A DNA stretch of 64,000 bases, from contig OZ025248.1 of NCBI GenBank assembly GCA_964019135.1, forward strand, positions 41,843,670 through 41,907,669, in the 5' to 3' direction. The notes under the pieces were generated by a model. That model did no database searches, was not told where the DNA came from, and saw only the letters and a program-made list of their open reading frames with translations. Of this stretch, positions 6,601 through 42,600 are shown in pieces. Source of the stretch: Arenicola marina (taxonomy: Eukaryota > Annelida > Polychaeta > Arenicolidae). The position numbers were made by a program, and so were the translations under genes. Every line of letters begins with the position of its first letter. Positions within the stretch are counted from its first letter, which is position 1.

Positions 6601-9600
6601 AGGCCATGCTCCACATAGGTGATTCCTGCATCCCGGGCCATACTTCACGTAGGTGAGTCCTGCACCCGGGCCATGCTCCACATAGGTGAGTCCTGCACCC
6701 CAGGCCATGCTCCACATAGGTGATTCCTGCATCCCGGGCCATGCTCCACATAGGTGAGTCCTGCACCCCGGGCCATGCTCCACATAGGTGAGTCCTGCAC
6801 CCCAGGCCATGCTCCACATAGGTGATTCCTGCATCCCGGGCCATACTCATTCCGTGCAGTCTGACAACTTAGTAATGTCATATATCGAAAGGTGTGTTTG
6901 CTTGTTTTTGTTTAACGATTTCTGTTTGCGACAGATGTTCGTTGATGCTCTGTGGTTTCGTATGTTGCCTCACAGGTGACGACTTGCTGGCCCAATACAG
7001 CCAGGATAACGTCTGGTACCGCGCCAAGGTCATTGAGGTCACATATCCAGAAGAGGCCCTAAATCCCGAGGATCAGGTCAAGGTCGCTTTTGTAGATTAT
7101 GGCAACACGGACCTAGTGACAGCTGACAGGTGAGCCTCGTTATCGTGTTACCCATCACATAGTTGTAAAAAGTTTTTTTTAAAAATAAAAATAGCTAGGA
7201 TAGCTTTGCTTTCGAGTAAGTCATTCCTGTCAAACGCATGCGCGGGATCTGTGCCGCATGGGTTTTGTGGACGTTCTATGTCACGAGTTACTTTCTGTGT
7301 GTCACGTACATGTATTTCTAACTAAGTTGCGGTATGGCTGGATACAAAATGGCGCTGTGACCCTCTTCTCACACTTCTTGTTGACAGTTCTACTTGATTA
7401 GTTTAAAATGGATGCATTGTTAAGATTAGCTAAGATAAAACTTTATTTAACGTCGGTATATAAGTTAACAATAAACGTTAGTCCAAAGTGCTATTGGCCT
7501 GTGATCCCCGACAGGAACTAATGAGGTATATTTATATATAATAATGACCATCTAACAACAATTCCATGAACTCTGTAAACCTTACCCAGTAGCTATACTG
7601 CACCATGTCCAAGATCTACAGTGACGCGAGACAACATCCAACGCGGACAGCATCGTTGAATATTTTAAATTATATGATTGATTAAGAATAACTAAAAGAT
7701 GGACTGAATCAAGTTCAGCCTGATATCTGATTGGCTCCACAGGATCAGGACCATACCGGGCAAGTTTCTGAAGCTGCCCGCCCAGGCCCGGGAGTGCACC
7801 CTCTTCGACATCGTCCCGGCCGGAGAGGTGGGTCACGTCGTCTCGAAGGGACGTAAACCTTTGATACCATTGCCTTCTACCAAACTATAGTCTGTGTTCT
7901 TAATGTTTGTTATGACGGAAAATGATTTTTCCGACATCTATCAACTTGTAAGTTTTTCTGTGCGTGTGTCTGTCTGCGCGCGCTCTGTAGGTAGCAAAAC
8001 GCAACATTTCATTCCGTCGAAAATGGGACTTTCATAAATACGATGTTGTACATTCGGTTTGAACTTGTTCCACTGCATTAGTGTTGAATCCGTGAGACGT
8101 GTTTCCGACATGTGCATGACACGACAAGAACATTAAATGCGCATTTGGTGCCTTCCAAACTATCATTAATACACTCCTCAAAAAAAGACTGCTATATTCA
8201 CTATCTACTAAGCCAACTAAGCATGTTATGTTGTTTTGTTTCTCTGGGTTACGTGTATGCCCGTATTTTAATTGTGGGCCAATTGTGAACATACTGCCAG
8301 ATATTGGGAAACGTATCCTGTAACCGATAAACTTTTTGAACCTTATAAGGCAGCAGAGATCCACAGTACAAGTCACCAAAATTACAAGTTACCCATACAG
8401 CAATATTTCCCCTTAAAACTCTGAAAACCCTGAAAACCTGAAAAATGTCTTGAACGGAAATAGCGTATTTAGGTTCTTAGTGTATAATAACACATAAATG
8501 TAATGCAGTCTATAGCAGGGCATGTTCTTAAGCCACGTGTCAATGTGTCCATGATGTTTGTCAACCACATTTTAAAATTCTTAATGTTGATAGCAAATTG
8601 CTGTATGAGCAGCTGTACATAACGGCATGGGAGAGGCTTCATTGCCGATCGTAACCTATTGAGCGAACCATGTATCTATCCACTGGTGTTCATGGCTATG
8701 GTGTTTCTGCTTCAGGACATGCAGTGGTCGGCCGAGGCGATACGTAACTTCGCGCTGATGACGGGAGACAAGCCGATGTTACTGACGGTATATACTTAAT
8801 GTTCCTCACAAGTTGTAGACGTACTGACGATATGGTGGGCGATAAAGGGGGGCGTAATACATACCATTCCCTGGAATCCTGGTCGCCAAATTAAATCGTA
8901 ATTTCAAGTCTTCGCCATATCGATTATGTTTGCTATATTAATTTTATTGGCGTTTATTTTAATGAAGAACTCCTGGCATTCACATACTGCGATAAAAGAG
9001 ATTATCATCATGGGCGTCACATAATCAAATATAGTTTAGTACTCTGTCCAATAAAGTGGCGACTTAATGTTGCAGTTATAGGGACTCCCTGGTGTAGTGG
9101 TTAGGCAATAGAGCGTGGGTTGAAAGCCGGGCCCTGGCACCTAATGTGTGGCATGGTTCATCCTTTAACCTCCCGATATGTTCCTTGGCCCAGTTTAGAG
9201 ATCGTGTGCACAAAAGCGGCATAAAACACCTATTTATGTCTATTCATAAACAAAGTGATTTTGAATGTTACGGTACTTAAGAAGCACGCGCATTGGCGGT
9301 TAAATCGTAGCAGGTAAGAGTGGCGTCGGCACCTTAACAACAAGGACAAGAGTGTTCGCGTCACACTTCTGCAAAACTCCGATCTTTGAAAAATCAGTAA
9401 ATAACGATGAAATCAGTTTATGGTCCTGGGAGGTTCCTTAACCGAGTGTAGCAGAAAAGGGGCCTAAATTGATGTCCTTTTGGTTCAGGTTATGTCTGAG
9501 ACTACCGAGGGCGTTGCGAACGTAGACCTCTCCAAGCCGGGCGCCGACGCCATTGAAGACGATCGCCCCATCTCAGTCCGGGACGCCCTGGTCTTCCTGG

Positions 9601-18600: not shown

Positions 18601-21600
18601 AGGTATATATGGATTGGTACGTCTCCTTTGTCCATGCTATCTAATGTTCTATCAATTAGTTTCAGAGCAGCTAATTCAGTTGAGTTTTTTGCGAAACCCA
18701 TATTGACTTTTATTTAACAAATTGTTGTCGACAAAATGATCGTACAGTTGGTCGGCGACAATTTTTTCAAATACTTTTAAGATAGCAGGTAGTATCGAAA
18801 TTGGCCTGTAGCTACCGAATTGGCATTCGTCGCCCTTTTTACAAATGGGTATAACTTTAGCCATTTTGAGTTTATCTGGAAACAATCTGCCCCTTCCCTT
18901 GCAGCTCCCTGATCCAGCCATCGGACGACACCGGACCGACCGCGGTGCCTGATGATCGCGGCAGTAAGCTGCCAGTGAGTGGGGTGGACATTGAGGCAGA
19001 CTCAAAGCTGGCGATCTCTATGGTACCTCTTCCATGTTAAGGCGGAACATCGTTTCAGCATAGCTCACCTATGACTCACGCCTACCATTGACTACAATAG
19101 TACATTTCATGGGTTCTTGATATCACAGATATTTTCCATACTTTCAACTGGCTATTATTGGGTGTTCATAGTATTTTGCATTGTACTGAAGTCACCTAAG
19201 TATACTTGGTAAGTAAAGAGGCGATTGCAGGTGATTTTGTTTAGTTCCACAGTCGGTTGGAGAAGTTCAAATCGCCTTACTATAACCGCGGATGTGTAGT
19301 TGTCCTTTTGCCAGTCGCCACACTAAAGCCAGAGAAAGGAATGTTTGGTGTGATGAACACTTAAAAACTTCTGTAGCGGTCACGTTATCACTTAGTATTT
19401 GATCATCAGTCTATATTGGGCATGCCATGACTTTCATTGTTGACCCTATATGTGACATTTAGATGACGAAGAAGGAGACCGAAGCGCCCTCTGTTAGACA
19501 ATCCGCTAAAGCCTCGCGGCTAAACCCGGACATGACTGCCGCCGCGAGACTGGTGGCGGCCGGGAACCGGCTACCTACTGCGGGGAACATGGCAGTGCGT
19601 GGTGGGAGCCAAGCCGCAGTGACAGGGAACCAGCCTGCATCCCAAGCGGGGCCCAAGCCGGGCTTGCTGCGGCAGGAGTCGTGGGTGGAGGTGCCGGACT
19701 CGCACCAAGTGGTGGTCAGCCACACCCGGAACCCCGGCCACTTCTACCTGCAGATGGCCTCCGTGGGGCAGGACACTCTCTACCAGTGAGTCGGCCACGC
19801 CACCCCCCCCACCCCATTAGCCCATCGCCCGGATGTACACTGTGATTAAGGAGGAATACTCGTACCTAAAACAAGCTAATTGCAAGCGTGCTTCAGGCCA
19901 GCTTTCCGGACATGAAGCATATATTTTAGAAGTTTTATGAAGTACTTATGTTATAAGTAGCAGTTCGTATACTTTGGTATATTGTGGGCAATGATTTCAT
20001 TGTATTATGCATTACCGCTCAAATGGAAGATGGTTGAAAGAGGTACACAAAAGTGCTTCTAATAGAATCAAATATTTTTGCAATTTTTGTAATCAGTTCT
20101 GTAATATCAGATATCAGTATAATAATCAATGTATATGAACTATTTCTGATAATATATGTATTAAGGAAATATAAAATACTCCCTTAAGCAATTTACGGTA
20201 AGGTCGCCTGTCTTGATGTCTGTCAGCGCAATGACCCCTCTCTTGCCTTGCTTTACTGCCACCTAACACCTGTAACCTGCTCTGGTTTTCGTCTTGATGC
20301 AGGTTGATGGAGGACCTGGATGCCGCAGCCATGGCGAGGTCCACCTCGGTCAGCCTGGCCAAGTGGAAGGAGGGTGCTTGCTGTGCCGCCAGGCGTGCGG
20401 AGGACCAGCTCTGGTACAGGGCCAAGATTATCAGTCTCGCACAGGACGGGAAGGCAAAGGTAAAACTGTCACCGGTATGGCTGGCTGGGGCAGGACAACG
20501 GGTTAAAGGTAGGGCTGACTGGGCCAGGACAACGGGTTAAAGGTAGGGCTGAATGGGGCAGGAGGACGGGTTAAAGGTAGGGCTGACTGGGGCAGGAGGA
20601 CATGGTAAAGATAGCGGTGACTGGGGCAGGAGGACGGGTTAAAGGTAGGGTTGATTGGGGCAGGACGACGGGGTAAAGGCAGGGCTGATTGGGGCAGGAA
20701 GACGGAGTAATGGTAGCGGTGACTGGGGCAGGAGGACGGGGTAAAGGCAGGGCTGATTGGGGCAGGACGACGGAGTAAAGGTAGCGGTGACTGGGGCAGG
20801 ACGGCGGGGTAAAGGTAGGGCTGACTGGGGCAGGAGGACGGGGTAAAGGCAGGGCTGATTGGGGCAGGACGACGGAGTAAAGGTAGCGGTGACTGGGGCA
20901 GGACGACGGTGTAAAGGTAGCGCTGTCTGGGGCAGGAGGACGGGGTAAAGGCAGGGCTGATTGGGGCAGGAAGACGGAGTAAAGGTAGGGCTGACTGGGG
21001 CAGGACGGCGGGGTAAAGGTAGCGGTGACTGGGGCAGGACGGCGAGGTAAAGGTAGCGGGGACTGGAGCAGGACGGCGGGGTAAAGGTAGCGGTGACTGG
21101 AGCAGGACGGCGGGGTAAATGTAGCGGTGACTGGAGCAGGACGGCGGGGTAAAGGTAGCGGTGACTGGAGCAGGACGGCGGGGTAAAGGTAGCGGTGACT
21201 GGAGCAGGACGGCGGGGTAAAGGTAGGGCTGACTGGGGCAGGAGGACGGGGTAAAGGCAGGGCTGATTGGGGCAGGACGACGTAGTAAAGGTAGCGGTGA
21301 CTGGGGCAGGACGACGGGGTAAAGGTAGCGCTGTCTGGGGCAGGAGGACGGGGTAAAGGCAGGGCTGATTGGGGCAGGAGGACGGAGTAAAGGTAGCGGT
21401 GACTGGGGCAGGACGACGGAGTAAAGGTAGGGCTGACTGGGGCAGGACGACGGGGTAAAGGTAGCGGTGACGAGCAGGACGGCGGGGTAAAGGCAGGGCT
21501 GATTGGGGCAGGACGACGGAGTAAAGGTAGCGGTGACTGGGGCAGGACGACGGGGTGAAGGTAGCGGTGACGAGCAGGACGGCGGGGTAAAGGTAGGGCT

Positions 21601-24600
21601 GACTGGGACGGGGTAAAGGCAGGGCTGATTGGGGCAGGACGACGGGGTGAAGGTAGCGGTGACGAGCAGGACGGCGGGGTAAAGGCAGGGCTGATTGGGG
21701 CAGGAGGACGGGGTAAAGGTAGGGCTGATTGGGGCAGGACGACGGAGTAAAGGTAGCGGTGACTGGGGCAGGACGACGGAGTAAAGGTAGCGGTGACTGG
21801 AGCAGGACGGCGGGGTAAAGGTAGGGCTGACTGGGGCAGGAGGACGGGGTAAAGGCAGGGCTGATTGGGGCAGGACGACGGAGTAAAGGTAGCGGTGACT
21901 GGAGCAGGACGGCGGGGTAAAAGTAGCGGTGACTGGAGCAGGACGGCGGGGTAAAGGTACCGGTGACTGGGGCAGGACGACGGAGTAAAGGTAGCGGTGA
22001 CTGGGGCAGGACGGCGAGGTAAAGGTAGCGGTGACTGGGGCAGGACGGCGAGGTAAAGGTAGCGGGGACTGGAGCAGGACGGCGGGGTAAAGGTAGCGGT
22101 GACTGGAGCAGGACGGCGGGGTAAATGTAGCGGTGACTGGAGCAGGACGGCGGGGTAAAGGTAGCGGTGACTGGGGCAGGACGGCGAGGTAAAGGTAGCG
22201 GGGACTGGAGCAGGACGGCGGGGTAAAGGTAGCGGTGACTGGAGCAGGACGGCGGGGTAAATGTAGCGGTGACTGGAGCAGGACGGCGGGGTAAAGGTAG
22301 CGGTGACTGGAGCAGGACGGCGGGGTAAAGGTAGCGGTGACTGGAGCAGGACGGCGGGGTAAAGGTAGGGCTGACTGGGGCAGGAGGACGGGGTAAAGGC
22401 AGGGCTGATTGGGGCAGGACGACGTAGTAAAGACAGCGGTGACTGGGGCAGGACGACGGGGTAAAGGTAGCGCTGTCTGGAGCAGGAGGACGGGGTAAAG
22501 GCAGGGCTGATTGGGGCAGGAGGACGGAGTAAAGGTAGCGGTGACTGCTGCAGGACGACGGGGTAAAGGTAGGGCTGACTGGGGCAGGACGACGGAGTAA
22601 AGGTAGGGCTGATTGGGGCAGGACGACGGAGTAAAGGTAGCGGTGACTGGGGCAGGACGACGGTGTAAAGGTAGCGCTGTCTGGGGCAGGAGGACGGGGT
22701 AAAGGCAGGGCTGATTGGGGCAGGAAGACGGAGTAAAGGTAGGGCTGACTGGGGCAGGACGGCGGGGTAAAGGTAGCGGTGACTGGGGCAGGACGGCGAG
22801 GTAAAGGTAGCGGTGACTGGAGCAGGACGGCGGGGTAAATGTAGCGGTGACTGGAGCAGGACGGCGGGGTAAAGGTAGCGGTGACTGGAGCAGGACGGCG
22901 GGGTAAAGGTAGCGGTGACTGGAGCAGGACGGCGGGGTAAAGGTAGGGCTGACTGGGGCAGGAGGACGGGGTAAAGGCAGGGCTGATTGGGGCAGGACGA
23001 CGGAGTAAAGGTAGCGGTGACTGGGGCAGGACGACGGGGTAAAGGTAGCGCTGTCTGGGGCAGGAGGACGGGATAAAGGCAGGGCTGATTGGGGCAGGAG
23101 GACGGAGTAAAGGTAGCGGTGACTGGGGCAGGACGACGGGGTGAAGGTAGGGCTGACTGGGGCAGGACGACGGAGTAAAGGTAGGGCTGACTGGGGCAGG
23201 ACGACGGGGTAAAGGTAGCGGTGACGAGCAGGACGGCGGGGTAAAGGCAGGGCTGATTGGGGCAGGACGACGGAGTAAAGGTAGCGGTGACTGGGGCAGG
23301 ACGACGGGGTGAAGGTAGCGGTGACGAGCAGGACGGCGGGGTAAAGGTAGGGCTGACTGGGACGGGGTAAAGGCAGGGCTGATTGGGGCAGGACGACGGG
23401 GTGAAGGTAGCGGTGACGAGCAGGACGGCGGGGTAAAGGCAGGGCTGATTGGGGCAGGAGGACGGGGTAAAGGCAGGGCTGATTGGGGCAGGACGACGGA
23501 GTAAAGGTAGCGGTGACTGGGGCAGGACGACGGAGTAAAGGTTGCGGTGACTGGAGCAGGACGGCGGGGTAAAGGTAGGGCTGACTGGGGCAGGAGGACG
23601 GGGTAAAGGCAGGGCTGATTGGGGCAGGACGACGGAGTAAAGGTAGCGGTGACTGGAGCAGGACGGCGGGGTAAAAGTAGCGGTGACTGGAGCAGGACGG
23701 CGGGGTAAAGGTACCGGTGACTGGGGCAGGACGACGGAGTAAAGGTAGCGGTGACTGGGGCAGGACGGCGGGGTAAAGGTAGGGCTGACTGGGGCAGGAG
23801 GACGGGGTAAAGGCAGGGCTGATTGGGGCAGGACGACGGAGTAAAGGTAGCGGTGACTGGGGCAGGACGACAGGGTAAAGGTAGCGGGGACTGGAGCAGG
23901 ACGGCGGGGTAAAGGTAGGGCTGACTGGGGCAGGAGGACGGGGTAAAGGCAGGGCTGATTGGGGCAGGACGACGGAGTAAAGGTAGCGGTGACTGGGGCA
24001 GGACGACGGGGTAAAGGTAGCGGGGACTGGAGCAGGACGGCGGGGTAAAGGTAGGGCTGACTGGGGCAGGAGGACGGGGTAAAGGCAGGGCTGATTGGGG
24101 CAGGACGACGGAGTAAAGGTAGCGGTGTCTGGGGCATGACAACGGAGTAAAGGTAGCGGTGACTGGGGCAGGACGGCGGGGTAAAGGTAGGGCTGACTGG
24201 GGCAGGAGGACGGGGTAAAGGCAGGGCTTATTGGGGCAGGACGACGGAGTAAAGGTAGCGGTGACTGGGGCAGGACGACGGGGTAAAGGTAGCGGTGACT
24301 GGAGCAGGACGGCGGGGTAAAGGTAGGGCTGACTGGGGCAGGAGGACGGGGTAAAGGCAGGGCTGATTGGGGCAGGACGACGGAGTAAAGGTAGCGGTGT
24401 CTGGGGCAGGACGACGGAGTAAAGGTGGCGGTGACTGGGGCAGGACGGCGGGGTAAAGGTAGGGCTGACTGGGGCAGGAGGTCGGGGTAAAGGCATGGCT
24501 GATTGGGGCAGGACGACGGAGTAAAGGTAGCGGTGACTGGGGCAGAACGACGGGGTAAAGGTAGCGGGGACTGGAGCAGGACGGCGGGGTAAAGGTAGGG

Positions 24601-27600
24601 CTGACTGGGGCAGGAGGACGGGGTAAAGGCAGGGCTGATTGGGGCAGGACGACGGAGTAAAGGTAGCGGTGACTGGAGCAGGACGGCGGGGTAAAAGTAG
24701 CGGTGACTGGAGCAGGACGGCGGGGTAAAGGTACCGGTGACTGGGGCAGGACGGCGGGGTAAAGGTAGGGCTGACTGGGGCAGGAGGACGGGGAAAAGGC
24801 AGGGCTGATTGGGGCAGGACGACGGAGTAAAGGTAGCGGTGACTGGGGCAGGACGGCGGGGTAAAGGTAGGGCTGACTGGGGCAGGAGGACGGGGTAAAG
24901 GCAGGGCTGTCTGGGGCGGGAAGACGGGGTAAAGGTAGCGGTGACTGGAGCAGGACGGCGGGGTAAAGGTAGCGGGGACTGGGGCAGGACGGCGGGGTAA
25001 AGGTACCGGTGACTGGGGCAGGACGGCGGGGTAAAGGTAGGGCTGACTGGGGCAGGAGGACGGGGAAAAGGCAGGGCTGATTGGGGCAGGACGACGGAGT
25101 AAAGGTAGCGGTGACTGGGGCAGGACGGCGGGGTAAAGGTAGGGCTGACTGGGGCAGGAGGACGGGGTAAAGGCAGGGCTGTCTGGGGCGGGAAGACGGG
25201 GTAAAGGTAGCGGTGACTGGAGCAGGACGGCGGGGTAAAGATAGCGGGGACTGGAGCAGGACGGCGGGGTAAAGGTAGGGCTGACTGGGGCAGGAGGACG
25301 GGGAAAAGGCAGGGCTGATTGGGGCAGGAGGACGGGGTAAAGGCAGGGCTTATTGGGGCAGGACGACGGAGTAAAGGTAGCGGTGACTGGGGCAGGACGA
25401 CGGGGTAAAGGTAGCGGTGACTGGAGCAGGACGGCGGGGTAAAGGTAGGGCTGACTGGGGCAGGAGGACGGGGTAAAGGCAGGGCTGATTGGGGCAGGAC
25501 GACGGAGTAAAGGTAGCGGTGTCTGGGGCAGGACGACGGAGTAAAGGTGGCGGTGACTGGGGCAGGACGGCGGGGTAAAGGTAGGGCTGACTGGGGCAGG
25601 AGGTCGGGGTAAAGGCATGGCTGATTGGGGCAGGACGACGGAGTAAAGGTAGCGGTGACTGGGGCAGAACGACGGGGTAAAGGTAGCGGGGACTGGAGCA
25701 GGACGGCGGGGTAAAGGTAGGGCTGACTGGGGCAGGAGGACGGGGTAAAGGCAGGGCTGATTGGGGCAGGACGACGGAGTAAAGGTAGCGGTGACTGGAG
25801 CAGGACGGCGGGGTAAAAGTAGCGGTGACTGGAGCAGGACGGCGGGGTAAAGGTACCGGTGACTGGGGCAGGACGGCGGGGTAAAGGTAGGGCTGACTGG
25901 GGCAGGAGGACGGGGAAAAGGCAGGGCTGATTGGGGCAGGACGACGGAGTAAAGGTAGCGGTGACTGGGGCAGGACGGCGGGGTAAAGGTAGGGCTGACT
26001 GGGGCAGGAGGACGGGGTAAAGGCAGGGCTGTCTGGGGCGGGAAGACGGGGTAAAGGTAGCGGTGACTGGAGCAGGACGGCGGGGTAAAGGTAGCGGGGA
26101 CTGGGGCAGGACGGCGGGGTAAAGGTACCGGTGACTGGGGCAGGACGGCGGGGTAAAGGTAGGGCTGACTGGGGCAGGAGGACGGGGAAAAGGCAGGGCT
26201 GATTGGGGCAGGACGACGGAGTAAAGGTAGCGGTGACTGGGGCAGGACGGCGGGGTAAAGGTAGGGCTGACTGGGGCAGGAGGACGGGGTAAAGGCAGGG
26301 CTGTCTGGGGCGGGAAGACGGGGTAAAGGTAGCGGTGACTGGAGCAGGACGGCGGGGTAAAGATAGCGGGGACTGGAGCAGGACGGCGGGGTAAAGGTAG
26401 GGCTGACTGGGGCAGGAGGACGGGGAAAAGGCAGGGCTGATTGGGGCAGGACGACGGAGTAAAGGTAGCGGTGACTGGGGCAGGACGACGGGGTAAAGGT
26501 AGGGCTGACTGGGGCAGGAGGATGGGGTAAAGGCAGGGCTGATTGGGGCAGGAAGACGGAGTAAAGGTAGCGGTGACTGGGGCAGGACGACGGGGTAAAG
26601 GTAGCGCTGTCTGGGGCAGGAGGACGGGGTAAAGGCAGGGCTGATTGGGGCAGGAAGACGGAGTAAAGGTAGCGGTGACTGGAGCAGGACGGCGGGGTAA
26701 AGGTAGCGGTGACTGGAGCAGGACGGCGGGGTAAAGGTAGCGGTGACTGGGGCAGGACGACGGGGTAAAGGTAGCGGTGACGAGCAGGACGACGGGGTAA
26801 AGGTAGGGCTGACTGGGGCAGGAGGACGGGGTAAAGGTAGGGCTGATTGGGGCAGGACGACGGGTTTAAGGTAGCGGTGACTGGAGCAGGACGGCGGGGT
26901 AAAGGTAGCGGTGACTGGAGCAGGACGGCGGGGTAAAGGTAGCGGTGACTGGGGCAGGAGGACGGGGTAAAGGTAGCGGTGACTGGGGCAGGACGACGGG
27001 GTAAAGGTAGCGGTGACGAGCAGGACGGCGGGGTAAAGGTAGGGCTGACTGGGGCAGGAGGACGGGGTAAAGGCAGGGCTGATTGGGGCAGGACGACGGA
27101 GTAAAGGTAGCGGTGACGAGCCGGACGGCGGGGTAAAGGTAGGGCTGACTGGGGCAGGAGGACGGGGTAAAGGCAGGGCGGATTGGGGCAGGACGACGGA
27201 GTAAAGGTAGCGGTGACGAGCAGGACGGCGGGGTAAAGGTAGGGCTGACTGGGACGGGGTAAAGGCAGGGCTGATTGGGGCAGGACGACGGAGTAAAGGT
27301 AGCGGTGACTGGAGCGGGACGACGGTGTAAAGGTAGCGGTGACTGGAGCAGGACGACGGGGTAAAGGTAGCGGTGACGAGCAGGACGGCGGGGTAAAGGT
27401 AGCGGTGACTGGGGCAGGAGGACGGGGTAAAGGTAGGGCTGACTGGGGCGGGAAGACGGGGTAAAGGTAGCGGTGACTGGGGCAGGACGACGGAGTAAAG
27501 GTAGCGGTGACTGGGGCAGGACGGCGGGGTAAAGGCAGGGCTGATTGGGGCAGGGTGACGGGGTAAAGGTAGCGGTGACTGGGGCAGGAGGACGGGGTAA

Positions 27601-30600
27601 AGGTAGCGGTGACTGGGGCAGGACGGCGGGGTAAAGGTAGCGGTGACTGGAGCAGGACGGCGGGGTAAAGGTAGCGGTGACTGGAGCAGGACGGCGGGGT
27701 AAAGGTAGGGATGTTTAGTGAATTAGATATCAGTGATGTTGCTTGTTTTAATGACGACTTCTTCCCTAATCCGTTTCGTTACGTTACCATGACAACCAGG
27801 TACTGATGCTGGACTACGGGTACGAGGAGGAGTTGGATGTGGGTGAGTTGCGCCCCCTGTTGGCCAGACTTGTCAGCATCCCGAGCTGCTGTTTCCGGTG
27901 CCACATGGCGGAAGTGCAGCCCGCAGGCGACATCTCGCGGTGGTCACAGACGTCAATCGAATTCATGGCGGAGAAACTCTGCAATACACCAAGCTTCATA
28001 GTCAGCAAAGTGAGTTATAGTTTGCCATATTAAGCGCAATAGCCACTAGTGGAACACCATGATCTAGATCTGTTCGTTGTGGAGTCTTTGTTAATGTCGT
28101 TGCGTCGCCAACTTCCCCTGAGGTGACCACAATCCCAAAACCGTATCTATATAGCCTTGACACTCACCTTCTTGGTATCTTCACATAGATCGGATTCATG
28201 TTGCAAAAGAACGTTCTCCCATTGCAGCATCAGTGATTTCCACGGAATAAAGCAATGAGATATTTACAATTTATCACATCTTTACCCAACTAAAGAGACG
28301 CGCGTTCAAACAATGTTAGCCCGTACTGCTCCTTGTTACCGTGACACGCCTGTTGTTGCAGGGTCTGAGGCATTCACCATTCGTCATCCCGGACCCCGCT
28401 TAACCCTGTTGTGCACAAACGCGGCGTAAACCACCAATTTATTTCATTTCGCTTGTTGTTGCAGGGTCCTGTGGACGAGAGGGGTTCCCTGCCAGTGGAC
28501 CTGTTGCTCCAGGAAGTCGTGCAAGGGGACGCCCTGTCCTCAGACCAAGTCAACTTCAAGAGCTTCCAGCAGATGCTGCTCGACAGGGGCCTGGCCCTGC
28601 CTAAACGCAGGTACAACGCGCGTCTTCTGGCTTGTCAATCTCTATTATTTCCCGTTTCGTCCCCTACTTTTGAGGCGAACGTAGCCTCCCTTGATCTCTA
28701 TTAACACTTTGTTATTAATATATGTTTTTTTTTTGTAGTTTGACCATGTATTAGATGTTCGTGATGTACGTAATATGGAAGACCTTCCGCAATGGTCTGT
28801 AGACAACCGACAGCAAAACCTTTTGCTTGGCTATTTAAATTCATCAATGGAATATTCAAAAGCTTCCTGCATGTATCTATAGCACTGTTGACGTTGGTGG
28901 TTGCAGCATGCGGCGTCCCGCTGGGAGCGGTTCGGGCACTTCCGGCGGCACGACTTCCGGTGAGTCCACGCCGAGCCAAACTCCGGGGGCCTCATCTCCA
29001 CTAGGACCGCCGACCCGGGGACCGTCCGCAAGCTCTTCCGCGCCATCGACGCCTAAAGCCCCATCCCCAGGCAAGCAGGCCACATCGGGGGCATCCAGCC
29101 CACGCCCCGATTCCCAATCTCCAGTCGCACCCAAGCCAACATCCAGCCCGAGCCCCGATTCCCAATCTTCAGTCGCACTCAAGCCAACATTCAGCCCGAA
29201 TTCCGACTCCCAATCTCCAGTCGCACTCAAACCAACATCCAGCCCGCTTTCCGGTTCCCAAACTCCAGTCGCACCCAAGCCGACATCCAACCCACATTCC
29301 GGTTCCCAAACTCCCGTCGGGCCGCCGCGTGTAGGCGTGGCTTCCGCTAGTCCCCGGCAGATGGTTAAACCGGGAAGCGGCAGTCTGGGTCGCGCCTCTC
29401 CAAGACCGTCCATTATCACTCAAATAGCCAACTCCGTGTCCCTGAACAGCATGGCTAAATCCCTGGACAGCGCCGTTAATGCCAAGCCAGACGAGGCCGC
29501 CGTCGCAGAGGCTCGCCTGGAGTCTGGTTTAGACTTAGGCCTAGCGATCGCCCCGCTGGAAGGCGCGGAAGAAGATGAAGAGTCTGACAGCCCCATCGGT
29601 GACCCGCCCAAGACCCCTCCAGCGTTCACCCCGGCCGAAGACGAGCTGGCGCCCGTACCGACCCATAGACACATCGAATACCAACCCCCGGACGAGCCCG
29701 TCCGCAGGCTCATGACTGTGGTGCCGACCTACGTCGACTACAGCGCGTTGATATATGTGCAAGAGGTGCAGCCAGGTCAGTACTTTTAATCTAAATTGTT
29801 GACATTATTGTATTAACATATTCTCGCGATTGCTAACTGTCAGGGGCCCGTTTCATAAAACTGTTTTAGGGATTACGTAATGCAGGGGCCTGTTTCATAA
29901 AACTGCATTAGGGATTACGTAATGCAGGGGCCTGTTTTATAAAACTGCATTAGGGATTACGTAATACAGATATGGTCTAATCAAAATTATTTAATACAGA
30001 TATGATTTTTTTATGGGTTTCATAAAAGTTAATCCTACTTACGTTTGCCGACTTAATCCATGTTAACTAATACACCTCCGCAGGTGTATTAAGGCTTTGT
30101 GGCCTGGCAACGGGCCATTCCTAGCAGATATGGCCTAATTTTGGGGCTGGGTTACTGATTCAACTGGAATATTATTTTGTTCTTGCCATTGTATGGGCAT
30201 TTTAGCCAATAAAGCGCAAAACTGACGATAACAAAGGAGACTGTGTGCTGAGTCACCACGGTCAGTGCGTGTCTCCATGACTAATGACGTCAATAAAGAA
30301 ATCAACCATACAATGTTGCAAACATGATGAGTGCACCTCACGTGCATAACTTGGCTTTGCCATAAAGCAAAGAGAGCCCATATGGCATAATACGCAATCA
30401 AATAACAGGTGACTGTCCATGATACCAGAACTGTCGGACCGCATTTTGTGAAAATAAATTCACTCGAGTTGACAATTGTCGCATAAAATGGCCCAGTTTA
30501 GTTCTGCACGGAAGAACAAACTTGGACATGGACGAATAAACCAAAGTAGGCAAGTGTCGTTTTTTACTAGAAAGCAAACAGTAACTGCTCGTTCGATTAC

Positions 30601-33600
30601 TATAATATTTAGGCCTTTTCTTCTTTATGACAATACCTATCTGCTTATTGATAAAAGTTTAACATAATCGAAGCGACAGTTTTGGCGTCATCGTTGAAAT
30701 CATATCGCTGTTATTATTGAACTCGTCGAAGCGATCGATTGGGCGTTAAATATACTGCCTCACATGTGTTGCGCTGCATGGGCAATAAGAGGACAACCGT
30801 GCGATCAAATTTATTTATATTAACCAGGTCGACTCTTTATTCCAATTAATATAAAATGCTGAAACATCAGCAAAATCGAAGCGGCAGTTTTTGCCTAATC
30901 TTAATCTGAAACTTTGGGAGGCGGTCTGCTCGTAGAAAGTTATAGACCTTTCTACCGGAACAACTAATTTGTTTTCCGTTTATAATCTGACCGCCCTTGA
31001 TGTAATGAACTACTGAACGCGTAGAAGGCACATATATATCTACTTGAAACATTATTCGGGCGTATTTACAGGCATCTGATTGTCGCTACTTTGCGTCAGT
31101 GTATGACTTGCGTATGCATGATGAGTGCTATCATGCTCGTACGGTCATGCTGTACGCTAAAATGCTGTATTCTGACCCAAACCGCCCTGCTGCCCATGCA
31201 ATCGACAATCGTTGCCATGGCGACATTGCATAGAACAATGAAACAGGATGTTACGCCCAGTGTGTGTTCTCGCTGTATCGTGACCTTACCCAGTGTGTGT
31301 TCTCGCTCTATCTTGACCTTACCCAGTGTGTGTTCTCGCTCTATCTTGACCTTACCCAGTGTGTGTTCTCGCTCTATCTTGACGTTACCCAGTGTGTGTT
31401 CTCGCTCTATCTTGACCTTACCCAGTGTGTGTTCTTGCTCTATCTTGACCTTACCCAGTGTGTGTTCTCACTATATTTTGACCTTACCCAGTGTGTGTTC
31501 TCGCTCTATCTTGACCTTACCCAGTGTGTGTTCTCACTATATCTTGACCTTATCCATTGTGTGTTCCCGCTCTATCTTGACCTTACCCAGTGTGTCTTCT
31601 CGCTCTATCTTGACCTTACCCAGTGGGTGTTCTCGCTCTATCTTGACCTTACCCAGTGTGTCTTCTCGCTCTATCTTGACCTTACCCAGTGGGTGTTCTC
31701 GCTCTATATTGACCTTACCCCGTGTGTGTGCTCACTATATCTTGACCTTATCCATTGTGTGTTCCCGCTCTATCTTGACCTTACCCAGTGTGTGTTCTCA
31801 CTATATCTTGACCTTATCCATTGTGTGTTCCCGCTCTATCTTGACCTTAACCAGTGTGTGTTCTCACTATATCTTGACCTTATCCATTGTGTGTTCTCGC
31901 TCTATCTTGACCTTACCCAGTGTGTGTTCTCGCTGTATCTTGACCTTACCCATTGTGCTTTCCCGATGCCTTCGGAAGACTGCGCCGTCGTTATGTACTC
32001 CAGGTTCAATATTGCCTCAAGGAGACTGACTTGATTCCCATACCGGTGTGACTATTGTCCTGCTTTCAGACGAGAGTCAGGAGGGCAAGCTGGGCTTCTT
32101 CCTGAAGGAGAACACCATCGAGGTGGTCCTGCAGGACGCCTACCTCGCCCAGACCGGCCTGCGCCGCTTCAAGATCGTCCGCGACGGTAATTGCCTGTTC
32201 CGGGCGCTGGCGGCGGCGCTGTGGCGCGACCAGGGCCGCCACGCCGAGACCCGGCGTGCCGTCTGCGGGGTCCTGCGCCGCAACTGGTTCCTCTTCGAAA
32301 ACGTCATGGCGGGCCAGTCGCGCGAGGACTACCTCGCCGCCGTGGAGCGAGACGGTTCCTACGGTGGCGAGCCCGAGATCCAAGCGGCCTGTCACGGGTA
32401 CGGGCTACGCGTCAAGCTCTTCCTCGGCGGGCTTGAGTCAAATGTCGTCTGCCGCTCGTACGGTGGCGGGAACGCGGCGCAGGCGAGCGGCGGGGAGGAG
32501 AACAGCGAAGACGGGGACAGCAGGGAGGTGGACGGAGGCCGCCTGGTGCGCCTGTCCTATGTGTCTGATGGGCTGTACGATAACGGTCATTACGACCTGG
32601 TGGTGGCCTGCGCCGAGGACGAGGGGTATCAAGATGACGGCGCCTACATCGACTGGAGGCAAACCCGCATCGAGGACTTCCGGAAGAGCGAGCGGTTCTC
32701 GGACAACAAGGTCTACGGTGAGGGAAATGGCAGTCGGCATCGCTCTCTCAGCTTCAACACCGTCAGAATGTAAATAAAACAAGATCGATGAATAAAAAAT
32801 GATACGTGTATCGAAACACGATTCCGTTTAACGACCGACTGAGCCTGTAACATTGAACGAGATAAATATGTGAGTGTAGAAATTGGATGATTCCTAAGAC
32901 GTGTTGACCTTCGCCAAAGACCCTACGTTTATTATGGACAACATTGATATTTAATGTTGGTGCCTCAACCTACAAGGAAGAGATTATTGAAGAGACTGTT
33001 GTGAGCGTGCTTGTGTGTGTGTGTCTCCAGAGCATAGCATCCTGCAGCAGTTGATGGACGTACTGCAGAAGAGGTTCCGGGACTCCAGCCCCCCTGCTTG
33101 CCCCACGTGGTCGGTGGGCCAGTCGATGGTGGCACGGTACACGCTGGACGACATGTACTACAGAGCTCGCATCACCGACATCACGGAGTCAGGTCTCAAG
33201 GTAAGCCACCCCCCTCAACCCCACATCCTCCATCTACACTCTCATGACATCACCCCCACCCTCCATCTACACCCTCATAATATCACCCCCACCCACCATC
33301 TACACCCTCATGATATCACCCCCACCCTCCATCTACACCCTCATAATATCACCCCCACCCACCATCTACACCCTCATGATATCACCCCCACCCTCCATCT
33401 ACACCCCCATGATATCACCGACATCAAGGAGTTAGGCCCTAAGGTCAGCCATCCCCCTCAACCCCCCACCCACCATCTACACCCTCATGATATCACCCCC
33501 ACCATCCATCTACACCCTCATGATATCACCCCCACCCACCATCTACACCCTCATGATATCACCCCCACCCTCCATCTACACCCCCATGATATCACCGACA

Positions 33601-36600
33601 TCAAGGAGTTAGGCACCAAGGTCAGCCATCCCCCTCAACCCCCCACCCACCATCTACACCCTCATGATATCATCCACCCCATTCAAACCTAAGACGATAA
33701 TTCGGATTCCGATCAAGTAATGTTGCCTCATGTCTGTAACTGACTTCTACTTATCTAACCGGTGTACGAGATCAGTTATCGTAAAGGGACTTGTTTCAGT
33801 TTCCATAAACGTAAGTGACATTGAGGTATAGGCCTTGCACGCTAGCGCACCACCTCGGGGATCGCCTCTTTGACTGCTGTGTGACGCAGGTGATGTACGT
33901 GGACTTCGGCAACTCTGAAGTGATCCCGGCCAGCAGACTGCGCGACCACGTGGCCCTGCCCGACATCCCCCAACAGTGCATCCCGTGTGTCCTGGCAAAC
34001 ATAGCGCCGGTAGGTGCTCGTGCGCCTGCGCGTACTCGTGCGCATGCGCGTGCTCGTGCGCCTGCGCGTGCTCGTGCTTGTGCGCCTGCGCGTGCTTGTG
34101 CGCGTGCCTGTGCATATGCACGTGAGCCTGCTTGAATATATATTCTGATTGGATAATTAACAGTGCCATTTATATACTGCTTGGATATTGACTGTGCGAT
34201 ATGTCAGTTGCATATATACCTGTGAGATATATTAGGTGGATATTTAACTTGAGATATATTAGTTGGATATTTAACTTGAGATATATTAGTTGGATATTTA
34301 ACTTGAGATATATTAGTTGGATATTTAGCTTGAGATATATTAGTTGGATATTTAACTTGAGATATATTAGTTGGATATTTAACTTGAGATATATTAGTTG
34401 GATATTTTAACGTGGCGATATATATACTACTTTGATATTGATATGTCTGGGACACGTGATCAGTGCCATGTCTGGGACACGTGATCAATGCCATGACTAG
34501 GACACGTGATCAATGCCATGACTAGGACACGTGATCAATGCCATGTCTAGGACACGTGAATAATATATCTAGGACACGTGATCAGTGCCATGTCTGGAAC
34601 ACGTGATCAATGCCATATCTAGGACACGTGATCAATGCCATGTCTGGGACACGTGATCAATGCCATGTCTAGGACACATGATCAATGCCATGTCTAGGAC
34701 ACATGATAAATGCCATGTCTAGCACACATGATCAATGCCATGTCTAGGACACATGATCAATGCCATGTCTAGGACACATGATCAATGATATGTCTAGGAC
34801 CCGTGAATAATGCCATGTATAGGACACGTGATCAATGCCATGTCCAGGACACGTGATAAATGCCATGTCTGGGGCGTGATCAATGCAATGTCTAGGACAC
34901 GTGATCAATGCCATGTCTAGGACACGTGATAAATGCCATGTTTTGGACTCGTGATAAATGCCATGTCTAGGACAAGTGATCAATGCCATACCAGTGACAA
35001 AGGCTGTGCGCTATGAATGCTAAGCCACGGTTGCTTTCCCTGTTTCAGGTATCTGAAGACGGTCGCTGGAGTGTTCCCGTGTTAGACAAGATCCACGGCA
35101 TGGTGGTGGGCAAAACATGCACGTTGGACGTACTGGTAATTACCTTGATTATCCCTTCAGTGACGTTACAGTGGCGCAGGTCTTTTGTCGCCAATAGAGC
35201 AGTCTGCCTTCTGTCGCCAATAGAGCAGTCTGCCTTCTGTCGCCAATAGAGCAGTCTGCCTTCTGTCGCCAATAGAGCAGTCTGCCTTCTGTCGCCAATA
35301 GAGCAGTCTGCCTTCTGTCGCCAATAGAGCAGTCTGCCTTCTGTCGCCAATAGAGCAGTCTGCCTTCTGTCGCCAATAGAGCAGTCTGCCTTCTGTCGCC
35401 AGTAGAGCGGTCTGCCTTCTGTCGCCAGTAGAGCGGTGTGCCTTCTGCCGCCAATAGAGCAGTCTGCCTTCTGTCGCCAATAGAGCAGTCTGCCTTCTGT
35501 CGCCAATAGAGCAGTCTGCCTTCTGTCGCCAATAGAGCAGCCTGCCTTCTGTCGCCAGTAGAGCAGCCTGCCTTCTGTCGCAAATAGAGCTGTCTGCCTT
35601 CTGTCGCCAATAGAGCAGCCTGCCTTCTGTCGCCAGTAGAGCAGCCTGCCTTCTGTCGCAAATAGAGCAGTCTGCCTTCTGTCGCCAATAGAGCAGTCTG
35701 CCTTCTGTCGCCAATTGAGCAGTCTGCCTTCTGTCGCCAATAGAGCAGCCTGCCTTCTGTCGCCAATAGAGCAGTCTGCCTTCTGTCGCCAATAGAGCAG
35801 TCTGCCTTCTGTCGCCAGTAGAGCGGTGTGCCTTCTGTCGCCAATAGAGCAGTCTGCCTTCTGTCGCCAGTAGAGCGGTGTGCCTTCTGTCGCCAATAGA
35901 GCAGTCTGCCTTCTGTCGCCAATAGAGCGGTCTGCCTTCTGTCGCCAATAGAGCAGTCTGCCTTCTGTCGCCAATAGAGCAGTCTGCCTTCTGTCGCCAA
36001 TAGAGCAGGCTGCCTTCTGTCGCCAATAGAGCAGTCTGCCTTCTGTCGCCAATAGAGCAGTCTGCCTTCTGTCGCCAATAGAGCAGTCTGCCTTCTGTCG
36101 CCAGTAGAGCGGTGTGCCTTCTGCCACCAACAGAGCAGTCTGCCTTCTGTCGCCAATAGAGCAGTCTGCCTTCTGTCGCCAGTAGAGCGGTGTGCCTTCT
36201 GTCGCCAATAGAGCAGTCTGCCTTCTGTCGCCAATAGAGCGGTCTGCCTTCGGTCGCCAATAGAGCAGTCTGCCTTCTGTCGCCAGTAGAGCAGTCTGCC
36301 TTCTGTCGCCAATAGAGCAGTCTGCCTTCTGTCGCCAATAGAGCAGGCTGCCTTCTGTCGCCAATAGAGCAGTCTGCCTTCTGTCGCCAATAGAGCAGTC
36401 TGCCTTCTGTCGCCAGTAGAGCGGTCTGCCTTCTGTCGCCAGTAGAGCAGTCTGCCTTCTGTCGCCAATAGAGCGGTGTGCCTTCTGCCGCCAATAGAGC
36501 AGCCTGCCTTCTGTCGCCAGTAGAGCAGTCTGCCTTCTGTCGCCAATAGAGCAGTCTGCCTTCTGTCGCCAGTAGAGCGGTGTGCCTTCTGTCGCCAATA

Positions 36601-39600
36601 GAGCAGTCTGCCTTCTGTCGCCAATAGAGCGGTCTGCCTTCGGTCGCCAATAGAGCAGTCTGCCTTCTGTCGCCAGTAGAGCAGTCTGCCTTCTGTCGCC
36701 AATAGAGCAGTCTGCCTTCTGTCGCCAATAGAGCAGCCTGCCTTCTGTCGCCAATAGAGCAGCCTGCCTTCTGTCGCCAGTAGAGCAGTCTGCCTTCTGT
36801 CGCCAGTAGAGCAGTCTGCCTTCTGTCGCCAGTAGAGCGGTGTGCCTTCTGCCGCCAACAGAGCAGTCTGCCTTCTGTCGCCAATAGAGCGGTGTGCCTT
36901 CTGCCGCCAATAGAGCAGCCTGCCTTCTGTCGCCAATAGAGCAGCCTGCCTTCTGTCGCCAGTAGAGCAGTCTGCCTTCTGTCGCAAATAGAGCTGTGTG
37001 CCATCTGTCGCCAATAGAGCAGTCTGCCTTCTGTCGCCAATAGAGCAGTCTGCCTTCTGTCGCCAATAGAGCAGCCTGCCTTCTGTCGCCAGTAGAGCGG
37101 TGTGCCTTCTGCCGCCAACAGAGCAGTCTGCCTTCGGTCGCCAATAGAGCAGTCTGCCTTCTGTCGCAAATAGAGCTGTCTGCCTTCTGTCGCCAATAGA
37201 GCAGTCTGCCTTCTGTCGCAAATAGAGCTGTCTGCCTTCTGTCGCCAATAGAGCAGTCTGCCTGCTGTCACAAATAGAGCTGTCTGCCTTCTGTCGCCAA
37301 TAAAGCAGTCTGCCTTCTGTCGCAAATAGAGCTGTCTGCCTTCTGTCGCCAATAGAGCAGGCTGCCTTCTGTCGCAAATAGAGCTGTCTGCCTTCTGTCG
37401 CCAATAGAGCAGTCTGCCTTCTGTCGCAAATAGAGCTGTCTGCCTTCTGTCGCCAATAGAGCAGTCTGCCTGCTGTCACAAATAGAGCTGTCTGCCTTCT
37501 GTCGCCAATAAAGCAGTCTGCCTTCTGTCGCAAATAGAGCTGTCTGCCTTCTGTCGCCAATAGAGCTGTCTGCCTTCTGTCGCCAACAGAGCAGTCTGCC
37601 TTCTGTCGCCAATAGAGCAGTCTGCCTTCTGTCGCCAATAGAGCGGTCTGCCTTCTGTCGCAAATAGAGCTGTCTGCCTTCTGTCGCCAATAAAGCAGTC
37701 TGCCTTCTGTCGCAAATAGAGTTGTCTGCCTTCTGTCGCCAATAGAGCAGTCTGCCTTCTGTCGCAAATAGAGCTGTCTGCCTTCTGTCGCCAATAGAGC
37801 AGTCTGTCTTCTGTCGCAAATAGAGCTGTCTGCCTTCTGTCGCCAATAGAGCAGTCTGCCTTCTGTCGCCAATAGAGCAGTCTGCCTTCTGTCGCCAATA
37901 GAGCAGTCTGCCCTCTGTCGCCCATAGAGCAGTCTGCCTTCTGATACCCTCGCCTAACCCACACCAATGAGGTGTCCAGTAAGCATTGTGTGTGTCGTTA
38001 TTACCAATCTGACATACTTGTGTTACCTGTTTCACTAGCATGTGTGTGTTGCCCGCAGTCGGTAGCGGCCGGCCCGGTGCTGACGGTGGACCTGTGGCTG
38101 CCTAACGGGGCCCTACTGACTGACCTGCTGCAGGCCACCGGCATGGCGCGGGACCAGGCCGTGCCCGCGGCAGGGACCGCCCCAGGCACCGCCCCAGGCA
38201 CCGCCCCAGGCAGCGTCCCAGGGCCCGGGGCGGGGGGCCCGGCGGTGGGGGAGGCCGGCACCTCCCTATCAGCAGCCCGGTCAGTGCGGTCGGAGCCGGC
38301 GCCAGAGCCAGAACCCGAGACGGACGCTTACGAGGACCTTGGTGTGCCCCAGAGATCCGTAAGTTACCACATTATGTCAAGTTTTAATGTTATTAAACTT
38401 CATTGAAGTCGTAAGAGTTACTTATGCACATAATGCACATTATTTAAATAATTTCTACCCCTGAGATCAACGTAAATATTTTACATGAAACAACACTTTA
38501 TCTGATATACATGTAATTGAAGCCAACTTTGTAGTTTTTCGCATTTAATCTTATGTCACTGAGTGGTAAAACTCTCCACCGGACTGACGATTGTAATGAC
38601 CCTGTGAGTGCGTGTAGAGCTCATTGCGGCTGGGCATTGATGTGCGTGGTGACTGCTTGCAGACTGCGAGTCCCTTCAGTCCGCTGGTGAGGCCGGCCAG
38701 CGGGGACCTCATGCTGGTGTCTGTCACCCAGGTGGACGCCCCCGACACGGTCAGTACAATCATCGCCATCGTTACAGGTCCCACTGTAGGCCGACCCCAC
38801 TCTGTAGGCCGACCCCACTCTGTAGGCCGACCCCACTCTGTAGGCCGACCCCCCTCTGTAGGCCAACCCCACTCTGTAGGCCGACCCCACTCTGTAGGCC
38901 GACCCCACTCTGTTGGCCGACCCCCCTCTGTAGGCCAACCCCACTCTGTAGGCCGACCCCACTCTGTAGGCCGACCCCACTCTGTTGGCCGACCCCCCTC
39001 TGTAGGCCAACCCCACTCTGTAGGCCGACCCCACTCTGTTGGCCGACCCCACTCTGTTGGCCGACCCCCCTCTGTAGGCCAACCCCACTCTGTAGGCCGA
39101 CCCCACTCTGTTGGCCGACCCCACTCTGTAGATCAACCCCACTCTGTAGGCCAACCCCCACTCTGTAGGCCGACCCCCCTCTGTAGGCCAACCCCACTCT
39201 GTAAGCCGACCCCACTCTGTTGGCCGACCCCACTCTGTAGATCAACCCCACTCTGTAGGCCAACCCCCACTCTGTAGGCCGACCCCCCTCTGTAGGCCAA
39301 CCCCATTCTGTAGGCCGACCCCACTCTGTAGGCCGACCCCACTCTGTAGATCAACCCCACTCTGTAGGCCGACCCCCCTCTGTAGGCCAACCCCACTCTG
39401 TAGGCCGACCCCATTCTGTAGGTCAACCCCACTCTGTAGGCCGACCCCCCTCTGTAGGCCAACCCCACTCTGTTGGCCGACCCCCCTCTGTAGGCCAACC
39501 CCACTCTGTAGGCCGACCCCACTCTGTAGGCCGACCCCACTCTGTTGGCCGACCCCCCTCTGTAGGCCAACCCCACTCTGTAGGCCGACCCCACTCTGTT

Positions 39601-42600
39601 GGCCGACCCCACTCTGTTGGCCGACCCCCCTCTGTAGGCCAACCCCACTCTGTAGGCCGACCCCACTCTGTTGGCCGACCCCACTCTGTAGATCAACCCC
39701 ACTCTGTAGGCCAACCCCCACTCTGTAGGCCGACCCCCCTCTGTAGGCCAACCCCACTCTGTAAGCCGACCCCACTCTGTTGGCCGACCCCACTCTGTAG
39801 ATCAACCCCACTCTGTAGGCCAACCCCCACTCTGTAGGCCGACCCCCCTCTGTAGGCCAACCCCACTCTGTAGGCCGACCCCACTCTGTAGGCCGACCCC
39901 ACTCTGTAGATCAACCCCACTCTGTAGGCCGACCCCCCTCTGTAGGCCAACCCCACTCTGTAGGCCGACCCCATTCTGTAGGTCAACCCCACTCTGTAGG
40001 GCAAGCCCACTCTGTAGGCCGACCCCACTCTGTAGGTCAACCCCACTCTGTAGGCCGACCCCACTGTGTAGGTCAACCCCCACTCTGTAGGCCGACCCCA
40101 CTCTGTAGGTCAACCCCCACTCTGTAGGCAGACTCCCCCCTGTAGGCCAACCCCACTCTGTATGCCAACCCCACTCTGTATGCCAAACTCCTATTTGTTG
40201 GCCAAACCCACTATGCAGGCCGACCCCACTCTGTAGGCCGACCCCACTCTGTAGGCCGACCCCACTATGTATGCCAAACTCCTATTTTTTGGCCAAACCC
40301 ACTATGCAGGCCGACCCCACTTTGTAGGCCGACCCCACTCTGTAGGCCAACCCCACTCTGTAGGCCGACCCCCCTCTGTAGGCCGACCCCACTCTGTAGG
40401 CCGACCCCCCTCTGTAGGCCAACCCCAACTATATAGGCCGACCCCACTCTGTAGGCCAACCCCACTCTGTAGGCCGACCCCCCTCTGTAGGCCAACCCCA
40501 CTCTGTAGGCCGACCCCACTCTGTAGGCCAACCCCACTCTGTAGGCCGACCCCCTATTTGTAGGACAAACTCCTATTCGTTGGCCAAACTGGACTATGTA
40601 GGCTAACCCCCTATTCCTAGGCCAACCCCCCTCTGTGTGCTAATCCCATATTTGTAAGCCAACCCCCCTCTGTAGGCCAAACCCCATTATGTAGTCCAAC
40701 CCCCACTATGTAGGCCAACCTCCACTCTGTAGTCTAAACCCCACTCTGTAGGCTAAACTCCATTCTGTAGGCTAATCCCCACTCTGTAGGCGGACCCCAA
40801 TTTGTAGGGTAACCCCACTCTGTAGGCTAACCTCCACTCTGTAGGGTTACCCCCAGTCTGTAGGGTAACCCCCACTCTGTAGGCGCATCCCCACTCTGTA
40901 GGCGCACCCCCACTCTGTAGGCTAACCTCCACTCTGTAGGCCAACCCCCACTCAGTAGGCTAACCTCCACTCTGTAGGCCAAACCCCACTCTGTAGGCCA
41001 AACCCCACTCTGTAGGCCAATCCCCACTCTGTAGGCCAACCTCCACTCTGTAGGCCAACCCCCACTCTGTAGGCTAACCCCCACTCTGTAGGCCAAACCC
41101 CACTCTGTAGGCCAAACCCCACTCTGTAGGCCAACCCCCACTCTGTAGGCCAACCCCCACTCTGTAGGCCAACCCCCACTCTGTAGGCTAACCCCCAATC
41201 TGTAGGCCAACCCCCACTCTGTAGGCCAACCCCCACTCTGTAGGCCAACCCCCACTCTGTAGGCCACCTCTCACACCGGGAGATTCCTCGACCCAGGTTA
41301 GCCCTTGTGTTGGCATAAAGCGGCCTGACCCCTCGACTTGTTTGCAGGTGTACATTCAGCACGTGAGTCAGGATGACGCCAAGGAGCCCCACTTCACGGC
41401 CATTAACAAGGAGCTGGACCTGCTGCTGCAGCTGTCAGACTACCTCAACTCCAACTGCCATCACTTCCTGCCCCTCGACCGCCTCGCTCCGGGTGAGTCA
41501 CGCCACACCAATGGACCTGGTCACGCCAAGCCGGCCTCAATGGGCCTGGTCACGCAAGCCGGCCTCAATGGGCTTGGTCGCGCTCAGCCGGCCTCAATGG
41601 GCCTGTGGCCAGTATCACGAAACCTTCGTACCGTACCTTACACGTAGCCCATATACGAAGGTTCGTATGAGAATTGTACGTGCGTTTCACGAAGCCTTCG
41701 TACCTCCTTCGTATTTTGTTTGTCTGAAGTGCATCGTACGAACCTTCGTACCACATGTTTTAACACCCAAAATTAAAGAAATACCAATGCGGATGTTATA
41801 AATGCAAAAGGTTTTACATGAAAACATTTAATTGAAACGGGCCTTTGATGTAAGCTTTTGCAAAAATCTAGTGCTTTTGCCGTGCGCTGCAATATTAATT
41901 TGCGTCATTTTTGCTGTTTCCATCCATTCATAATGTGCAAGGCGCCATGCGACCGTTGCCAGGAGACGCTTGATGTCTTGTCATGATGCGCCCCAAGTCC
42001 GCAAAACGCTCTTGTCAAGATGGGGTCATGATGGGGTCATGACGGTGTCATGATGCGCCCCTTGCTTAGTCCTTCAGAAGCTTATCATGACGCGCGCCTC
42101 ATGCTCGTGGGTCACGTCGTGTAAATCATGCAAGTTTATAAAGATTATACATTGTAAGTGCGAAGTCATTCGTTTACTGTGACTGTTCAGCAAATGTTTC
42201 TCCTTGGTGGGGATGTGTGTGTGTGTGATTCGGCTGACCGTCTCACATGCGGATTTGCTAGGTCTCTGCTGCAGGCTGGGCCTTCTAAGTGGGTGTCATG
42301 CCTGTAGCTAAAAAATTAAACGTTAACCTATGCTTTGTTTGTGACCAAATGAAAGTTTGATAATTACTGGCATAAACATTCAAGCGGCGTCATCGATTTT
42401 TCTCATCGGGTAAGGAATAAGGATTTGCAGTTGCATAGCCTGGGGATGCGACCAGTTGGTGTGCACCCTGTGCGGTGAGTGGTCGGCTGTTGTTGCAGGC
42501 ACGGCGTGCTGCGCCCAGTACTCCATAGCCTGGGGATGCGACCAATTGGTGTGTACCCTGTGTGGTGAGTGGTCGGCTGTTGTTGCAGGCACGGCGTGCT

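Follow-up and report, generated by a model that had tools for sequence, protein, structure and literature searches.

A 64,000-nucleotide stretch of the Arenicola marina genome (contig OZ025248.1, positions 41,843,670 to 41,907,669 of the forward strand; this whole stretch is called the window below) carries what is, judged by homology, an annelid orthologue of RNF17 (TDRD4) in which an OTU cysteine protease domain, encoded by the single exon 24, lies inside the fourth extended Tudor domain. The same OTU is found at the same point of extended Tudor 4 in the predicted RNF17 of Lingula anatina, Owenia fusiformis and Lamellibrachia satsuma, and these three with the window gene are referred to as the four fusion proteins. 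The explanation that best covers the whole, to which we give a probability of about 0.72, is an RNF17 orthologue with an ancestral insertion of a phase 1-1 OTU exon, yielding a Tudor-tethered deubiquitinase. In functional terms, a germ-granule scaffold probably acquired, through one old insertion of a single exon, a deubiquitinase that is tethered to it and probably active.

Exon 24 occupies 32070..32717 on the + strand, as do all features given below on their own coordinates. It comprises 648 bases or 216 codons, within an open reading frame that runs open from 32030-32773, and is symmetric, with phase 1 at each end. It is bordered by AG at 32068-32069 and GT at 32718-32719, which scored 3.7 and 4.6 with the one simple matrix used for all splice sites, where scores under 1.5 fall below the print limit. 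A sequence-only reading of this DNA had placed a 216-residue OTU domain here, with apparent catalytic Asp, Cys and His. Its coordinates were exact, and the exon matches Pfam OTU (PF02338) with an E value of 2.3e-10 and 41.5 bits, the cut-off being 23.3. The catalytic codons were located at 32183-32185 (Asp, the D of DGNC), 32192-32194 (Cys, the C of DGNC) and 32588-32590 (His, in NGHYDLV). All three residues are invariant in the four fusion proteins, as are the DGNC and HYDL motifs around them, and each of the four has a Pfam OTU match above the cut-off. A helix with the signature YxxWRxxR follows the OTU core (32636..32683) and is likewise conserved in 4/4. The G+C content at third codon positions is 0.87 in exon 24, close to that of its near neighbours (0.84 in exon 25 and 0.82 in exon 26); over 12 other exons measured it ranges from 0.63 to 0.84.

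The OTU interrupts a Tudor unit whose parts lie in the exons on either side. Exon 23 (28907..29775, ending in phase 1) encodes a Pro/Ser-rich linker followed, from 29712, by the two opening strands of extended Tudor 4 (MTVVPTYVDYSALIYVQEVQP). The linking helix and the start of the Tudor core come from exon 25 (33031..33200, starting in phase 1), the remainder of the core from exon 26 (33890..34009) and the C-terminal part of the unit from exon 27 (35049..35135). Exons 23-24-25 joined give one open frame, and 23-25 without exon 24 are likewise in frame. When exon 24 is skipped the open frame reads LIYVQEVQPEHSILQQLMDVLQ, and RNF17 proteins without an OTU read alike here, with few residues between strand and helix in the aligned orthologues. 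These orthologues served as the reference by which nesting was judged. In the Pfam TUDOR profile, the last part of exon 23 joined to exons 25-27 covers positions 9-121 of 121 (E 2.5e-19); with the exon 23 part removed, coverage shrinks to 29-121 (E 4e-17). Exon 23 thus provides the first strands, and the OTU therefore lies within the Tudor domain, as the sequence-only reading had proposed. With the TUDOR profile split around the OTU, the architecture is not that of OTUD4, Otu and ALG13, where an OTU is followed by a separate Tudor; extended Tudor structures also align with the ends on both sides of the OTU. By homology, the interrupted unit is the fourth of five. Its residues for the aromatic cage of a methyl-arginine reader, at the positions known from SND1 and Tudor structures, are Tyr, Tyr, Tyr, Phe and Asn, distributed across exons 25-26, and the pattern Y/F, Y, Y, F, N is present in the sequences of 4/4 fusion proteins. 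Acceptor scores are low in this region (below 1.5 at exons 23 and 26, 1.8 at exon 25), so those joins rest on frame and homology; the start of exon 23 was set by frame. The coding sequence of exon 23 also contains an in-frame 48-base repeat (16 residues, Pro/Ser rich) at 29092-29319, just before the interrupted Tudor unit.

Forty-three sequences from the PDB were listed in the comparison with solved OTU domains, a set without OTUD4, ALG13, fly Otu or OTUD6. Within it the nearest structure is OTUD1, with an E value of 2.9e-13 from the window sequence alone and 8.5e-22 from a four-species profile, for which the next best is 2.5e-12. The single-sequence alignment to OTUD1 covers the Cys loop, and the His falls in a second, insignificant stretch; the profile alignment continues through chain residue 149. 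OTUD1 was also the closest solved OTU by Foldseek and by VIA-align. The structure of the nested unit was predicted from the Lingula region, in which OTU and Tudor both fold well and the OTU fold is recovered. As modelled, both domains still fold, connected by flexible linkers. For the window, exon 24 was modelled alone and gave a moderate result, with a predicted local distance difference test score (pLDDT) of 71 and values below 50 for 134-155. In the alignment supplied to the model the tail of the window row, one of 19 rows, was misplaced over Tudor columns and was kept. A ubiquitin-interacting motif (UIM) was sought by family match and none appeared, either in exon 24 of the window (E up to 1) or in the relatives (E up to 0.01), although a short motif could escape this search.

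The sequence-only reading had called for a search of other lancelet and deuterostome RNF17 proteins for an OTU, counted a conserved fusion in its favour, and knew of no RNF17-type protein with an OTU nested in a Tudor unit. The fusion proved to be conserved in three other species, and the window gene is not unique: these relatives carry an OTU in their precomputed Pfam column. The brachiopod Lingula aligns across the whole nested region at 39%, and the insertion point is common to the four fusion proteins within about one residue. Our survey covers proteins found in, and chosen from, search listings. The alignment with the window took in 42 RNF17-type proteins, 11 of them unnamed and assigned to groups by tree position. 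An OTU is present in three (two annelids and one brachiopod) and absent from 39 (1 nemertean, 11 molluscan, 2 hemichordate, 6 echinoderm, 1 fish, 9 arthropod and 9 cnidarian). The precomputed OTU label is borne by 3 of the best 120 of 362 matches. A consensus search built on the four regions returned 13 matches, 3 with an OTU and 10 other Tudor proteins, and no further OTU-bearing RNF17. The first search, made with the window region, scored the 7992 best word-sharing candidates; Lamellibrachia (2903 amino acids) was outside its length range and Owenia was also missed, and absence from such a list is therefore weak evidence. Outside the OTU core the four fusion proteins share an N-terminal EGxxGxxLxExT segment and the C-terminal YxxWRxxR helix, and this common sequence argues for one origin of the fusion.

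The identity of the gene was established along its length and by phylogeny. Compared with the Lamellibrachia protein, the window gives best matches in consecutive order between 540 and 45078; with Lingula and Tubulanus they span 534-44692, with all five Tudor units covered. By RNF17 orthology, extended Tudor 1 is encoded by exons within 4602..7827, extended Tudor 2 within 11881..13220, extended Tudor 3 within 19682..28610 and extended Tudor 5 within 38663..44650. Five Tudor stretches, with B-box and RING-type matches, were found in all four lophotrochozoan records scanned. The RING zinc ligands (C3HC4 pattern) are intact in 3/3 full-length fusion relatives, where Pfam places the RING above its cut-off in 2/3 and the B-box in 3/3. 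A maximum-likelihood tree was built from the window and 42 proteins (31 named and 11 unnamed, picked by eye from the search lists) over 895 columns with the OTU excluded. It paired the window with Lamellibrachia at a bootstrap of 100, within a lophotrochozoan group supported at 78. The sequence-only reading had supposed a lancelet or other deuterostome source. That origin is ruled out by this pairing and by the approximately unbiased (AU) test, in which a deuterostome clade including the window is rejected (1.6e-06) and deuterostome monophyly alone is not (0.297); adding the window to the clade is about 94 log units worse than deuterostome monophyly alone. Joining the window with the fish alone gave 0.026 and with the hemichordates alone 7.1e-06. 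Two of the 42 tree proteins (Acropora, Dendronephthya) are labelled TDRD1-like by their source. Left outside the tree were many TDRD1/6/15-like matches, several matches without a name and, among the named RNF17 proteins, that of Ylistrum (P0046, with no OTU label). The window row of the tree input contained a short wrong-frame stretch, which was not found among the trimmed columns.

These observations suggest the following course of events. A small OTUD-type deubiquitinase, encoded by one symmetric exon of phase 1-1, would have entered a phase 1 intron in an ancestor among the lophotrochozoans. The point of entry would be the loop of extended Tudor 4 that connects the pair of N-terminal strands to the linking helix. 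The exon phases are those of the window alone, and the history of the insertion is one that we infer. Through its Tudor units the scaffold would recruit PIWI-type clients that are methylated, together with further germ-granule proteins, and the tethered OTU may then trim ubiquitin chains off the clients or off RNF17 itself. It could in this way counter the RING of RNF17 and other ligases and set client lifetime or granule composition. The helix conserved after the OTU may stand in for a UIM as a ubiquitin contact. Since exon 24 has the same phase at either end, its omission would not break the Tudor domain, so splicing could toggle the enzyme. More tentatively, the annelid and brachiopod RNF17 might form a self-contained ubiquitin-editing machine of the piRNA and germ-granule pathway, with a RING, an OTU and five methyl-arginine readers, the OTU directed by the Tudor that it interrupts and forms made with and without the eraser; we hold this broader picture somewhat more doubtful than not.

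Several points weigh against the insertion of a Tudor-tethered deubiquitinase as proposed above. The exon joins are predicted, and the fusion is known here from genomic sequence and predicted proteins. The clade that implies a single gain has a support of just 66 and the nemertean RNF17 is without an OTU. The AU test did not reject annelid monophyly excluding Lingula (0.078) or a grouping that unites the nemertean and the annelids and leaves Lingula outside (0.135), and at these values an OTU lost by the nemertean is not distinguishable from one gained later. The window starts downstream of the RING, and the Pfam RING score of Lingula is 20.3, just under the cut-off of 21. Lamellibrachia lacks four residues immediately before the His motif, and the Pfam OTU match ends short of the His in both Lingula and Lamellibrachia. 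OTUD1, the closest enzyme, is described in PMC3705208 as weak and unspecific without its UIM. Fly Otu and CG3251 have Ser for the catalytic Cys and, in one study, were inactive (PMC4654579); activity of fly Otu is reported by another group (PMC12263153). Mouse RNF17 forms germ-cell granules and has been linked to PIWIL1 and piRNA production, and its loss left the localisation of PIWIL1 and PIWIL2 unchanged (PMC10359003).

Some of these points would suit a nested OTU that is no enzyme in vivo, a pseudo-deubiquitinase that binds only ubiquitin or other scaffold proteins. The shortened His loop of Lamellibrachia and the weakness of OTUD1 without its UIM fit such a protein, as does the repeated loss of the catalytic Cys in OTUD4-family proteins described in PMC4654579. 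Against it, Asp, Cys and His have been retained with the DGNC and HYDL motifs in 4/4 fusion proteins, across annelids and a brachiopod. An enzyme role of the OTU appears likely, and we regard the pseudo-deubiquitinase as unlikely. A different objection concerns the gene itself, in that exon 24 could form a gene of its own within an intron of RNF17, or be left out of RNF17 mRNA altogether. The tandem arrays in the intron preceding exon 24, and a frame that survives its skipping, are what this view has in its favour. The first in-frame ATG of exon 24 is at 32306, however, and none lies 5' of the Cys codon, so upstream exons are required; the phases and splice sites fit at both ends, and the OTU is joined at the same point in the predicted proteins of three other species. 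Either version of this objection is very improbable in our judgement.

It is also conceivable that the OTU arrived with a mobile element and was then co-opted, instead of deriving from a host OTUD gene. The sole non-RNF17 match in the window-region search, the public protein P0003 (E 5.2e-06), is an OTU joined to Pfam PF10551, the MULE transposase family, which suggests that mobile elements may carry OTU domains too. Set against this are the fit of the profile to OTUD1 (8.5e-22) over the next solved OTU (2.5e-12), which is a one-sided comparison, as no mobile-element OTU is known among the solved structures, and the absence of a second copy of exon 24 within the 64-kb window. We consider a mobile-element origin quite unlikely and prefer the insertion of an exon from a host OTUD-type gene.

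Tandem arrays in the window gene cluster at its splice junctions between 2904 and 45010. Twenty arrays with a score of at least 100 lie inside the gene, and seven of them start no more than 30 bases from an exon end, a count that falls to six if four approximate exon ends are dropped. Random placement gave a mean of 0.56 (0.31 with starts drawn from introns only), and under either null 0/20000 trials reached seven. Some array units contain an exon start (12884-13066, 42434-43968 and 44661-45010). The Lamellibrachia RNF17 record (P0034) contains about 970 residues of the ten-residue repeat HLVGIKPVSG at residues about 1578-2549, beginning at the counterpart of the exon 26 end; it resembles a junction array that was read as protein-coding, and it follows the pattern of the window arrays. 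One Tudor 3 exon has a stray copy in an intron, at 13463-13581, which is 97.5% identical over 119 bases to 27820-27938. The right end of the window consists mostly of arrays (46075-55007 and 59260-64000) with 87-base and 79-base units matching at 96-97%.

Work on how ubiquitin controls PIWI proteins and germ granules has usually dealt with separate enzymes acting on the scaffold. In the fusion, one of the scaffold's own reader domains houses the likely eraser, which makes the protein a natural test of whether Tudor scaffolds shield bound clients from ubiquitin. If the gain was single, the fusion has been kept since before the annelid-brachiopod split. It is visible in the Pfam column of protein records, yet it is undiscussed as far as the literature was searched; titles and abstracts found in the openly licensed literature do not describe an RNF17-OTU fusion. 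The fusion combines known kinds, an RNF17 scaffold and an OTUD-type protease, and is not a new kind of system.

Of the known proteins, RNF17/TDRD4 (Drosophila Qin) is alignable along the window gene and resembles it in its five Tudor stretches; unlike it, most of those aligned here (39/42) have no OTU. A 2025 survey of Tudor genes keeps OTUD4 apart from TDRD4 as a different family, and the domain that it lists for TDRD4 is a RING zinc finger, with no OTU (PMC12147562). OTUD4, ALG13, Drosophila Otu and CG3251 have OTU and Tudor in one protein, as the window gene does. In these proteins the two domains are consecutive, as the sequence-only reading had it for OTUD4, ALG13 and Otu; CG3251 has an OTU at 29-150 and then a single Tudor at 296-361 (PMC4654579). 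The Tudor of the OTUD4/Otu group is of the T1 type according to PMC12147562, whereas in the window gene the OTU is enclosed by an extended Tudor, one of five Tudor units. Drosophila Otu acts in the female germline and oogenesis and is a mirror case, in that its Tudor part is the alternatively spliced piece (PMC12263153). The C-terminal UIM of OTUD1 gives Lys63 specificity and is needed for full activity (PMC3705208), and in its place the fusion has the YxxWRxxR helix.

A20 (TNFAIP3) carries an OTU and a ligase-type zinc finger on one polypeptide, and neither A20 nor OTUD1 is known to have a Tudor domain. A20-type OTU domains match the fusion OTU profile weakly (E 0.035-0.058). The extended Tudor of SND1 is explained, in PMC12147562, as a Tudor inserted after two SN-domain strands, the same seam at which the OTU was inserted; SND1 has no enzyme inserted there, unlike the window gene. 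The fusion is a clear case of an enzyme inserted in a fold that is itself explained by insertion, with apparently neither broken.
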